64,000 nucleotides of DNA from Blattabacterium cuenoti. Lineage in GTDB: Bacteria > Bacteroidota > Bacteroidia > Flavobacteriales > Blattabacteriaceae. Below, one piece after another: positions 47,512-52,213 of the stretch; the stretch's first letter is position 1, and each line of letters begins with the position of its first letter. The notes under the pieces were generated by a model. It saw only the letters and a list, made by a program, of their open reading frames with translations, did not search any database and was not told the DNA's origin. A program made the translations under genes and the position numbers. The stretch lies in the NCBI RefSeq assembly GCF_014252375.1, contig NZ_CP059221.1, positions 1 through 64,000 on the forward strand, in the 5' to 3' direction.

Positions 47512-48705
47512 ATGAATTTATACGAATACCAGGGAAGAGAAATTTTAAAAAATTTTTCAATTTTTGTTCCAAATGGAATTATAGTTTCTTCCCCTGAAGA
47601 AGCTGTAAAAGCTGCAAAAATTTTATTTAAAAAAACTAAAAATAAATCTTTAGTTATTAAATCACAAATACATGCAGGAGGTAGAGGAAAGTCAGGTGGT
47701 ATTCAGATAGTAAAAAATATTAATGATGTTTATAAAAAATCTAAAAATATTTTAGGAAAATATTTAGTTACACCTCAAACCCCAAAAAAAGGTTTAATTG
47801 TAAAAAAAATATTATTATCGGAAGATATTTATTCAGAATCATATTTAAATGATAAAAAATTGATAAAGGAATATTATTTATCAATAATGTTAAATCGTAA
47901 TATAAAAAAAAATATTGTTATATGCTCTAAAGAAGGTGGAGTTAATATAGAAGAAATATCAGAAAATCCAAAAAAATTATATATAGAAGAAATAAATCCA
48001 ATATTAGGATTACAAATATTTCAAATTAAAAAAATAGGATTTTTTTTAGAAATGTATAATAATGAACTTCTAAAAAATTTTTATTTTTTTCTAAAAAATC
48101 TTTATAAAGCATATACATATATTAACTCTACATTAATTGAAATAAATCCATTTATAAAAACATTTAATAATGAAATTATTCCAGTAGATGTTAAAATAAC
48201 GTTAGATGATAATGCAATTCCTAGAATAAAAAATTATCTATATAAATTAAATATAACTCATAAAAAAAATAAAAATTTTAATTTTATAAAATTAAAAGGT
48301 AATGTAGGATGTATGGTTAATGGTGCTGGATTAGCAATGGCCACTATGGATATGATTAAATCATGCGGTGGAGAACCTGCTAATTTTTTAGATATAGGAG
48401 GATCTGCTGATGAAAATATAGTAAAAGAATCTTTTTTATTAATATTAAAAGATAAATCAGTAAAAGTTATATTAATAAATATATATGGAGGTATAGTCCG
48501 CTGTGATACAGTTGTAAAAGGAATTTTGGAATCATGTAAAATTAATTGTCCAATTAACATACCAATTATTTTTCGTTTGAAAGGAACAAATGAAAAAAAT
48601 GCAAAAGATTTTATTTCTAGAACTAATTATATATCATCTATTTATATTACCGATACATTAAAAGATTCTTCTAATAAAATAAGAGAAATTTTATATAATT
48701 ATTAA
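47512..48705 (+). CDS. sucC: Succinyl-CoA ligase (ADP-forming) beta subunit
   Basis: With SucD (not in this window) it converts succinyl-CoA to succinate with ATP or GTP formation. The 397-residue protein begins MNLYEYQGREILKNF, the family opening, and has the ATP-grasp lysine region LVIKSQIHAGGRGKSGGIQIV (about 44-64), the metal-binding GCMVNGAGLAMATMDMIK near 264-281, the NFLDIGGSAD segment near 289-298 and INIYGGIVRCDTVVKGI near 323-339. Length is standard. It is separated from sucAB by two small minus-strand genes. Confidence 0.96.
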   Translation: MNLYEYQGREILKNFSIFVPNGIIVSSPEEAVKAAKILFKKTKNKSLVIKSQIHAGGRGKSGGIQIVKNINDVYKKSKNILGKYLVTPQTPKKGLIVKKILLSEDIYSESYLNDKKLIKEYYLSIMLNRNIKKNIVICSKEGGVNIEEISENPKKLYIEEINPILGLQIFQIKKIGFFLEMYNNELLKNFYFFLKNLYKAYTYINSTLIEINPFIKTFNNEIIPVDVKITLDDNAIPRIKNYLYKLNITHKKNKNFNFIKLKGNVGCMVNGAGLAMATMDMIKSCGGEPANFLDIGGSADENIVKESFLLILKDKSVKVILINIYGGIVRCDTVVKGILESCKINCPINIPIIFRLKGTNEKNAKDFISRTNYISSIYITDTLKDSSNKIREILYNY

Positions 48706-48707
48706 TT

Positions 48708-50087
48708 ATGTTGAATAAAAATATAATAGAAAAATATAAACCGAAAAAATTAGATGAAATAATTGGACAAGATGAAATAATACATTCTTTAATAAATAGT
48801 ATAAAGAATAAAAATTTTTATAAATTTTTATTCTTTATTGGAAAAGAAGGTGTTGGTAAAAATACTTGTGCAAATATTTTAGCGAAAAATATAAATAAAT
48901 ATTTTTCAGAAAAAGAAAATACATATAATTTATATAAATTATATAGAATTTTTAGAAATCCTTTTAAAGAGACGTTATTAGATAAATTTTTTATAAAAAA
49001 AAATAATAATGATAGTCCAAATATTTTTATATTTAATAATTTTAATATAACCTATCTATCTAATATATTTAGATTAATAAAAGTTAATAACAGTATATTT
49101 ATTTTTTGTATAAAAGAAAAAAAATTTTTTAATTTAATAGTAGAAAAATATCAATCATTTATATTTAAAGATATATCTGAACAAAAAATATTTTCCCACA
49201 TAAACATGATTGTGAAAAAAGAAAAAATACAAATAGAAAAAGATGCTTTATACACAATTTCTAAATATTCAAATGGTTCAATTGGAAAAGCTATTACAAT
49301 ACTAAATAATATTTATTTAAATAAGAATATTATAACTAATAATTATATTATAAATAAGTTAGGGATTATTGATAAAAAAGATTTTTTTATATTAGTAGAT
49401 TATTTATTAAATAATGATATAAATAAAGCATTAACTTTTATTAAAAAGATTTTTTTAGAAAAAGAGATTAAATATTTTATAATTGGATTAAAAAAACATT
49501 TTAGAAATTTATTTTTATCAAAAAATTTTAATAAATCATTAGATTTTATAAAAAAAAAAGAAATATTAGAATATTATGTAAAACAATCAAAAAATATATC
49601 TTATTATATTTTAAATAAAGCATTATATATTTGTTCTGATCTAGAACAAAAATATTTTTTGTATAAAAATATAGAATTTAATATAAAATCATTAATAGAA
49701 ACAAGTATAATTCAATTATCATATTATTTTTCAAAAAAATTAAAAATAAATAATAATAATAAAATAATTTTTTTTAAAGAATCATGGAATAATTTTATAC
49801 ATAATATTCCAAAAAATTTATTATCCAATGAATTAATTAATTCATTAATTAATGATACAAAATTTAAAATATTAAATAATAAAACATTATTAATAGTTAT
49901 TTCGTGTAACATAGAAAATAACAAATTAAGTTTAATTAATAAAAATTTTTATAAATTCTATAAAAATAGAATAGATAATTTATTTTTTAATTTTAAAATT
50001 GAAATTGAAAATAAAAATGATAATTCATATTTAAAAAATAAATTTCTAAATTTATTTATAAAACGAATAATTTCAAATAATTCTTAA
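48708..50087 (+). CDS. dnaX: DNA polymerase III tau/gamma subunit, ATPase motifs eroded
   Basis: Clamp-loader scaffold that loads the sliding clamp and tethers polymerase cores. The 459-residue protein opens KYKPKKLDEIIGQDEI (10-25), matching DnaX. The fold can be followed, but active-site elements are changed. Walker A reads GKEGVGKNT at 45-53, with Asn52 where Thr/Ser is expected. The zinc-module cysteines are gone. Walker B, usually IIDEVH, reads IFNNFN (108-113). The arginine-finger SRCQ is EKYQ, and the sensor-2 LRDA is IGKA. The C-terminal domain starting with WNNFIHNIPKN near 360 matches the Bacteroidota DnaX tail. Probable role is structural, with ATPase activity doubtful; HolB is a less likely identity. 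It starts 2 bp after sucC. Confidence 0.82.
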   Translation: MLNKNIIEKYKPKKLDEIIGQDEIIHSLINSIKNKNFYKFLFFIGKEGVGKNTCANILAKNINKYFSEKENTYNLYKLYRIFRNPFKETLLDKFFIKKNNNDSPNIFIFNNFNITYLSNIFRLIKVNNSIFIFCIKEKKFFNLIVEKYQSFIFKDISEQKIFSHINMIVKKEKIQIEKDALYTISKYSNGSIGKAITILNNIYLNKNIITNNYIINKLGIIDKKDFFILVDYLLNNDINKALTFIKKIFLEKEIKYFIIGLKKHFRNLFLSKNFNKSLDFIKKKEILEYYVKQSKNISYYILNKALYICSDLEQKYFLYKNIEFNIKSLIETSIIQLSYYFSKKLKINNNNKIIFFKESWNNFIHNIPKNLLSNELINSLINDTKFKILNNKTLLIVISCNIENNKLSLINKNFYKFYKNRIDNLFFNFKIEIENKNDNSYLKNKFLNLFIKRIISNNS

Positions 50088-50098
50088 TTTTAAAATTA

Positions 50099-52213
50099 AT
50101 GATTCACTACTTAAAAAAAAAAAAAAGTTATTTTTCTGTTTATTTAGATGAAAATATTAAAAATGATAATTTTAATTCTTCTTATGAAAATATAGGAAAA
50201 AACAAATCTAATTTAGGATTTTACAATAAAAATACATCGTTAATTAATAATACACCTATATTAAATCGTTTTGGAAAAAATTTAAATAACATAGCAATAG
50301 AAGGGAAGATAGATCCATTAATAGGAAGAGAGAATGAATTGGAAAGAATATCTCAAATCTTAATAAGAAGAACAAAAAATAATCCTTTATTAATAGGTGA
50401 ACCTGGAGTTGGAAAAACAGCTATTGCTGAAGGATTAGCTCTTAATATAGTTAAAAAAAAAGTATCCAGAATATTATATAATAAAAAAATAATTATACTA
50501 GATATAACAAGTATAATATCAGGTACAAAATATAGAGGAGAGTTTGAAGAAAGAGTAAAATATATCATTGATGAATCAGAAAAAAATCCTAATATAATAC
50601 TTTTTATAGATGAAATACATACAATTATAGGAGCTGGAACATATTCTACTGGATCATTAGATATATCTAATATATTTAAGCCAGCCTTATCAAGAGGAAA
50701 TATTCAATTTATAGGAGCTACAACACTAAATGAGTATAAAAAATATATAGAAAAAGACGGGGCATTAGAGAGAAGATTTCAAAAAATAATTATAAATCCT
50801 TCTTCAGAAAAAGAAACTATTAATATATTAAAAAATATTAAGTATAAATATGAAAATTATCACAATGTAATTTATACTAAAGAAGCTATTAATGCCTGTG
50901 TTAAACTAACTTCTAGATATATTTCAGATAGATTTTTTCCTGATAAAGCTATAGATGTATTGGATGAATCAGGATCTAGAGTTTATATAAAGAATATAAA
51001 AGTACCACAAGAAATAATAATATTAGAAAAAAGATTAGAAGAAATTATAATAGATAAATCAAACGCAATAAAAAATAAAAAGTACAAAGAAGCGGCTGAA
51101 TTTCGTTATAAAAAAAAATTAATAGAAAATAAATTAATAAAAGCTCAAAAAAATTGGGATAAATTTTCTAAAGAAAATAAAAATACTGTACATAAAAAAC
51201 ATGTTGAAGAAGTTATATCTATGATAAGTGGAATACCTATTAATAGAATAGATAAAATTGAAATAAAGAAATTAGATACAGTTATTAATTCCATAAAAAA
51301 TAAAATAATTGGACAAAATGAAATAATAGAAAAATTTATAAAAGTTATTAAAAATAATATTTCAGGAATGAGAAATTTTGATTCACCAATAGGATCATTT
51401 ATGTTTCTGGGAAAATCTGGAGTTGGAAAAACTTATTTAACAAAAATTTTATCCAAAGAATTATTTAATTCAGAAGACTCATTAATACGTATAGATATGA
51501 GTGAGTATATGGAAAAATTTTCTATTTCAAGATTAATAGGTTCTCCTCCAGGATATGTTGGTTATGAAGAAGGTGGGCAACTAACTGAAATTATTAGAAA
51601 TAGACCATATTCAATAATATTATTTGATAAAATAGAAAAAGCACATCCTGATATTTTTAATTTATTATTACAAATATTAGATTATGGATATATAACAGAT
51701 AGTTCTGGAAAAAAAATAAATTTTAAAAATACTATTATTATATTTATTTCAAATATTGAAATAGAAGATCTTATATCAGAATTTAAAAAAATAGGATACA
51801 AAACAAAATTAAAAAAAAATAAAAATAAATATAATAAAAGTATTTTGAAGAAATCATTAAAAAAAATATTTTCTTATGAATTTTTAAATAAAATAAACGA
51901 TATTGTTATATTTAATTCATTAAATTCTAATGATATCTCTAAAATAATCATATTAGAATTAAATAAATTAATATCACATGTTAATAGTTTAGGATATAAA
52001 TTGATTTTAGATTCTAAAATCAATAGTTTTATTAAAAAAATTGGGGTAAAAAGTGAATACAGTATTTCATCTATACAAAAATCAATAGATAAATATTTAA
52101 AAAATACTATATCTGAATCTATTGTTAATGGAAGTTTAAAAAAAGGATATAAAATTTTATTAAAGATGAACTATAAAAAAAATAATATAATAGCTTGTAT
52201 AGACAAAAAATAA
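50099..52213 (+). CDS. clpC: ClpC-like AAA+ unfoldase, N domain lost, second ATPase altered
   Basis: Double-ring Clp/HSP100 ATPase that feeds substrates to ClpP. The 704-residue protein is about 140 residues shorter than ClpC: the N-terminal Clp_N adaptor domain is missing, replaced by about 65 low-complexity residues. D1 is intact, with GEPGVGKT at 100-107, FIDEIHTIIGAG near 171-182 and ERRF near 223. A short UVR-like middle (KYKEAAEFRYKKK near 333) favours ClpC over ClpB. D2 has Walker A GKSGVGKT at 438-445, but Walker B reads LFDKIEKAHPD with Lys511 (codon 51629-51631) where the catalytic Glu is expected, and the GARPLRRAIQ sensor-2 block is reduced to EYSISSIQ. An EFKKIGYKTK segment may be the ClpP-docking loop. 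It overlaps nth by 19 bp. Confidence 0.85.
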   Translation: MIHYLKKKKSYFSVYLDENIKNDNFNSSYENIGKNKSNLGFYNKNTSLINNTPILNRFGKNLNNIAIEGKIDPLIGRENELERISQILIRRTKNNPLLIGEPGVGKTAIAEGLALNIVKKKVSRILYNKKIIILDITSIISGTKYRGEFEERVKYIIDESEKNPNIILFIDEIHTIIGAGTYSTGSLDISNIFKPALSRGNIQFIGATTLNEYKKYIEKDGALERRFQKIIINPSSEKETINILKNIKYKYENYHNVIYTKEAINACVKLTSRYISDRFFPDKAIDVLDESGSRVYIKNIKVPQEIIILEKRLEEIIIDKSNAIKNKKYKEAAEFRYKKKLIENKLIKAQKNWDKFSKENKNTVHKKHVEEVISMISGIPINRIDKIEIKKLDTVINSIKNKIIGQNEIIEKFIKVIKNNISGMRNFDSPIGSFMFLGKSGVGKTYLTKILSKELFNSEDSLIRIDMSEYMEKFSISRLIGSPPGYVGYEEGGQLTEIIRNRPYSIILFDKIEKAHPDIFNLLLQILDYGYITDSSGKKINFKNTIIIFISNIEIEDLISEFKKIGYKTKLKKNKNKYNKSILKKSLKKIFSYEFLNKINDIVIFNSLNSNDISKIIILELNKLISHVNSLGYKLILDSKINSFIKKIGVKSEYSISSIQKSIDKYLKNTISESIVNGSLKKGYKILLKMNYKKNNIIACIDKK

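Follow-up and report, generated by a model that had tools for sequence, protein, structure and literature searches.

Introduction

DnaX is normally the only clamp-loader subunit that hydrolyses ATP. In the clamp loader of Escherichia coli, ATP binding opens the clamp, and hydrolysis serves release. The role of tau as a polymerase tether is also established in E. coli. DnaX is usually viewed as a clamp-loading motor, and its tether role is hard to study, because model bacteria do not allow the two jobs to be separated. A clamp-loader AAA+ protein without ATPase activity has precedents in HolB (delta-prime) and in other inactive subunits.

Loss of dnaN, dnaX, holA and holB from symbionts is already known. 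Carsonella lacks all four genes (PMC2175510), and holA is lacking in all Karelsulcia (PMC12016543). All subunits are still reported for Walczuchella in a table of flavobacterial symbionts (PMC3971599), and one Blattabacterium is described as carrying dnaN as a pseudogene (PMC6039017). The Blattabacterium gene-loss papers (Kinjo 2018/2021) may already record the loss of dnaN or dnaX. No account of a retained, catalytically dead DnaX was found in the literature, of which the part on Blattabacterium gene loss was only partly covered. The cases in Carsonella and Karelsulcia concern the presence or absence of genes, whereas in Blattabacterium an inactive DnaX is retained under selection genus-wide and outlives the clamp. 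A selected dead DnaX within a dismantled clamp-loading system is thus what is added here.

The window analysed (64,000 nucleotides of Blattabacterium cuenoti) belongs to a genome of 574 kb with about 20% G+C, termed G000. Blattabacterium is the fat-body symbiont of cockroaches. The survey covered 49 Blattabacterium genomes, and 45 intact or open DnaX proteins were compared. The initial annotation of the window had described a single odd gene, a DnaX with eroded ATPase elements. The dead-ATPase state turned out to be genus-wide, and in addition the clamp is missing from the window genome.

Identity and domain organization of DnaX

The dnaX gene is located at 48708..50087 (+), and its translation is a single open reading frame of 459 aa. 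The frame matches TIGR02397 in an HMM search with an E value of 2.7e-37, at 128.8 bits against a curated cut-off of 250. In a profile search, E. coli gamma/tau are the top solved chains (3.4e-38). The AlphaFold2 model has a pLDDT of 80.8, and E. coli clamp-loader chains rank first in Foldseek (E 6e-12). The three-domain fold of base, lid and collar is present, and the overall TM score against the clamp loader is 0.4–0.5. This low value is probably due to the domain orientation and the extra C-terminal domain (CTD). The gene is bracketed by sucC (47512..48705, +) and clpC (50099..52213, +), and this position is unchanged in the relatives checked. The related DnaX loci obtained by a pattern search are all from Blattabacterium cuenoti. 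According to HMM, fold and synteny, the 459-aa frame is DnaX, an ATPase-dead clamp-loader subunit gamma/tau.

The AAA+ base domain (residues 1–160, 48708..49187, approximate boundary) is folded in the model, and its hydrolysis residues are lost. It is followed by the lid domain (residues 161–215, 49188..49352) and by the collar, or domain III, which is the oligomerization domain (residues 216–340, 49353..49727) and was assigned from the model and Foldseek. The CTD (residues 341–459, 49728..50084) is of the tau type and aligns with the full-length DnaX of free-living relatives; its predicted role is DnaE binding. All the domains are on the + strand. The base, lid and collar are homologous to those of E. 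coli and free-living Flavobacteriales DnaX, and with the latter the CTD is shared too. The intact frame and the persisting CTD of the initial annotation are thus borne out by translation, alignment and model, and the structure prediction and alignment suggested there gave a DnaX fold and DnaX homology.

Loss of the ATPase residues

Every ATPase motif is intact in the DnaX of the free-living relatives aligned (8/8). The window DnaX shares with bacterial DnaX the predicted fold and the glycines and lysine of the P-loop, but lacks the active residues of Walker A, Walker B, the SRC arginine finger and sensor 2. The P-loop GKEGVGKNTC (residues 45–54, 48840..48869, +) keeps G..G.GK from Gly45 to Lys51, and Thr52 is replaced by Asn. 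The former Walker B motif DEVH is now NNFN (residues 110–113, 49035..49046, +), and EKYQ is present in place of SRCQ at the former arginine finger (residues 146–149, 49143..49154, +). In the sensor-2 motif GSIGKAI (49275..49295, +), the Arg is replaced by Gly193. These substitutions had been read correctly in the initial annotation.

In the genus alignment, the P-loop glycines and lysine are invariant (45/45), whereas the following Thr, present in 8/8 free-living relatives, is replaced in all 45 proteins (Asn in 40, Ser in 4 and His in 1). With Ser at this position, Mg binding would still be possible. Of the 45 proteins, 44 have lost the Walker B Asp. The sensor-2 Arg is lost in 45/45 and present in 8/8 free-living relatives. 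The Arg of the SRC finger is retained in 26 of the 45 proteins and lost in the window lineage, and nearly all genus members have lost an Arg of the AAA+ domain that contacts DNA. Conservation within the genus falls largely on the structural residues that are also conserved in free-living DnaX. As the motif losses are common to the genus and the free-living relatives are intact, the hydrolysis-dead state predates the genus radiation. The window genome has carried the erosion further than this baseline.

The earlier statement that all the visible ATPase elements are eroded therefore holds for the Thr, the Asp-Glu pair, the arginine finger and the sensor-2 Arg, but not for the three glycines and the lysine of the P-loop. 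The zinc module is absent as had been stated, but its absence is not decay. The module is also absent in 6/7 readable DnaX proteins of free-living Flavobacteriales, which indicates that the absence is ancestral, and we rejected it as a sign of erosion.

Lost partners of DnaX

HolA (delta) and HolB are found at their own loci in 13/13 free-living relatives, and in 0/49 Blattabacterium genomes using public family models and Flavobacteriales profiles built for this analysis. The only matches of the latter profiles in Blattabacterium are cross-matches to dnaX itself, and the public models also give weak matches to RuvB-, Clp- and AlaS-like genes. The genome search proposed in the initial annotation found none of holA, holB and a second dnaX in G000. 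The remaining AAA+ matches there are RuvB- and Clp-like, so the intact second DnaX that had been considered as a counter-argument does not appear in this genome. The suggestion that another protein supplies the ATP hydrolysis is likewise disfavoured by these results. In G018 (C1:161512-163680), two RuvB-like matches lie 2 kb apart in frames of 198 and 328 aa, a possible partial duplication of ruvB.

The HolB of free-living Flavobacteriales has no working Walker A according to the HolB alignment, and thus DnaX was probably the only ATP-using subunit of the ancestral clamp loader. The Blattabacterium case differs from that of HolB, as the inactive subunit is DnaX itself, which still has an intact G..G.GK.

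All 49 Blattabacterium genomes encode DnaE. Its internal clamp-binding motif (QxSLFG-like) is found in some form in 12/12 free-living relatives and in 0/49 Blattabacterium genomes, all 49 of which have a lysine-rich linker at this place. Another clamp contact elsewhere in Blattabacterium DnaE is possible. Delta, delta-prime, the DnaE clamp motif and the hydrolysis residues are all gone genus-wide, which indicates that the common ancestor already had a broken clamp-loading pathway. The DnaE C-terminus appears equally preserved in genomes without dnaX and therefore gives no correlated signal for tethering.

In the dnaE gene of G000, the reading frame shifts at an A run within the fused N-terminal exonuclease (proofreading) domain (L193/L212, C1 about 309.7–314 kb, - strand). 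The same region is in frame in the relative G009. The frameshift could be an assembly error, be rescued by slippage or be a real loss of proofreading.

Clamp loss and its uncoupling from dnaX

Among the 49 genomes searched, dnaN gave no match in 8, including the window genome. These 8 genomes form one clade in the DnaE tree (support 0.999). Five of them show a clean absence of dnaN between the same neighbours, with a short gap remaining, and in G000 a tRNA-Met alone remains at the former dnaN site. These results indicate that dnaN was deleted once, in the clade to which the window genome belongs. The G000 gene matching a 559-aa neighbour in G047, which we take to be menD-like, is interrupted by a frameshift in a run of A (L151:1427-3108).

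The window genome thus has no gene for HolA, HolB or DnaN and, unlike E. coli and the free-living Flavobacteriales, combines their absence with a polymerase without clamp motif. Loading of DnaN together with delta and delta-prime is not a job open to its DnaX, which cannot be retained for this purpose. Clamp loading with little ATP hydrolysis, which the initial annotation had offered as one option, is excluded for this genome by the deletion of dnaN.

Five genomes of the clamp-less clade have an open dnaX. In G044 the frame is broken at a T run and otherwise continuous, in G019 the gene is deleted down to an unrecognizable remnant, and in G020 the AAA+ half is destroyed. Conversely, G021 keeps dnaN, and its dnaX is deleted. 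As a clamp occurs without DnaX and DnaX occurs without a clamp, the two genes were lost independently, and DnaX is hard to explain as a protein kept for loading DnaN. The repeated losses in G019, G020 and G021 indicate that the gene is not essential everywhere. In clamp-retaining genomes, dnaN frames are broken or split in G002, G049 and G017, which suggests an ongoing, repeated loss of the clamp.

The dnaX remnant of G020 has 18 stops in 200 AAA+ codons and then 0 stops in the 248 codons of the collar and CTD. The remaining frame of 247 aa (L149:4530-5273), for which a GTG start is possible, shows 28–41% identity to the C-terminal halves of other genus DnaX proteins. Its model consists of a clamp-loader collar and a small alpha-beta domain. 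The remnant is a natural ATPase-less DnaX. A profile search of the collar and CTD alignment alone against the PDB gave no matches.

Selection on dnaX

In pairwise codon models, the omega of dnaX is 0.12–0.32 in the pairs with unsaturated dS, and that of dnaE in the same pairs is 0.07–0.16. The comparison among relatives that the initial annotation had called for thus gave an omega below 1 for dnaX in every pair, and omega = 1 is rejected in all of them. It is also rejected between G000 and its nearest relative G009, both clamp-less (LRT 124); synonymous sites are saturated in the clamp-less pairs, and omega is therefore imprecise there. Neutral simulation of the AT-rich dnaX at comparable divergence produced 12–37 in-frame stops, and 0/200 runs stayed open. 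These results show that the window dnaX is under purifying selection and is not a pseudogene. DnaX mostly evolves faster than DnaE at the protein level (dN ratio about 0.9–2.9). Where dnaN is present, it is also under purifying selection (omega 0.13–0.23).

By domain, the omega of DnaX is 0.18 for the base, 0.15 for the lid, 0.28 for the collar and 0.31 for the CTD. Amino-acid divergence in 18 independent pairs gave no support for the AAA+ half as the most constrained part. A shift of constraint to the collar and CTD after clamp loss was also not supported (P 0.59, 3 clamp-less against 18 clamp-retaining pairs).

Proposed role of DnaX and alternatives

The best reading of Blattabacterium DnaX, and one to which we give an even chance, is that of a DnaE scaffold or tether that does not hydrolyse ATP. 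We infer this role from the losses and the constraint, both of which were computed. The Mg-binding Thr, the Walker B Asp and the sensor-2 Arg were lost before the genus radiation, and HolA, HolB and the DnaE clamp motif were lost at the same early stage, which turned DnaX into a pseudo-ATPase without its partners. The single deletion of dnaN in the window clade came later, with dnaX staying open and constrained. The collar presumably still forms a DnaX oligomer, and the CTD, like tau in E. coli, would bind the C-terminus of DnaE, tethering polymerases at the fork. The intact P-loop may hold nucleotide as a fixed structural cofactor, and the polymerase would run without a clamp. Oligomerization, DnaE binding and expression are predicted features of this protein. 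The case for the tether comes mainly from elimination and from G020; among the options of the initial annotation, it is what remains after the other two, as a favoured rather than a proven role.

The chief alternative is a slow relic, that is, a DnaX without an important role that decays slowly and is still open in most genomes. The three independent losses or wrecks of dnaX, the mostly faster protein evolution relative to DnaE and the piecemeal erosion of the arginine finger fit such a relic. We consider it unlikely, since omega is well below 1 in every pair, neutral decay would have produced many stops, the P-loop GK is invariant and the stops of G020 are confined to the AAA+ half. The invariant P-loop, with its specific Asn in 40/45, could also point to recruitment of DnaX to a non-replication job that needs its fold, as could the uncoupling of its retention from the clamp. 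Such recruitment is quite improbable: no specific partner or new domain was seen, the conserved residues are largely the structural ones of free-living DnaX, and the gene keeps its place between sucC and clpC in the relatives checked.

Hydrolysis-free clamp handling would again make use of the P-loop intact genus-wide. In dnaN-bearing genomes, the dead DnaX oligomer would bind ATP and open or hold the clamp, and the window clade would have lost this job later. The opening of the E. coli clamp by ATP binding and the purifying selection on dnaN agree with this mechanism. However, delta, the clamp-opening wrench, is missing, DnaE has no clamp motif, dnaN is kept without dnaX in G021, and a DNA-contact Arg is missing from nearly every genus member; the mechanism is also inapplicable to the window genome, which has no dnaN. 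We regard it as very doubtful. That the gene is really HolB-like, as the initial annotation had considered, or an assembly artefact is scarcely credible. Profiles of HolB do match the SRC region of DnaX in other genus members, but the window protein matches DnaX models and E. coli gamma/tau best, the matches listed include no delta-prime chain, and an artefact would not leave an intact frame with motifs common to 45 separate genomes.

The DnaE scaffold can be extended to the whole genus, and we put this wider proposal forward tentatively, at somewhat less than an even chance. The genus would replicate without a working clamp loader, and DnaX would be a nucleotide-holding pseudo-ATPase scaffold that selection maintained despite the loss of delta, delta-prime, the clamp contact of DnaE and, in one clade, the clamp itself. 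The scaffold is itself becoming dispensable, as two lineages have deleted dnaX and a third has only the collar and CTD left. If the proposal is true, the structural role of DnaX is here naturally separated from clamp loading. The genomes with the clamp, without the clamp, without the AAA+ half and without the gene form a graded natural series, in which roles of DnaX besides loading can be tested. The question is also raised of how roughly 570 kb is replicated by a polymerase apparently not using a clamp.

Frame breaks in the collar–CTD linker

The C-terminal truncations of DnaX in G003, G022, G041 and G044 were rejected as real losses of the CTD, as an A or T run is followed by an open CTD in a different frame. 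Long A runs are present in the linker between the collar and the CTD, and a run of A11 breaks the frame in G003, G022 and G041 (L020, L007 and L129, respectively) around codon 360. The frame-shifted but open CTD in these three genomes recalls the gamma/tau forms made by slippage.
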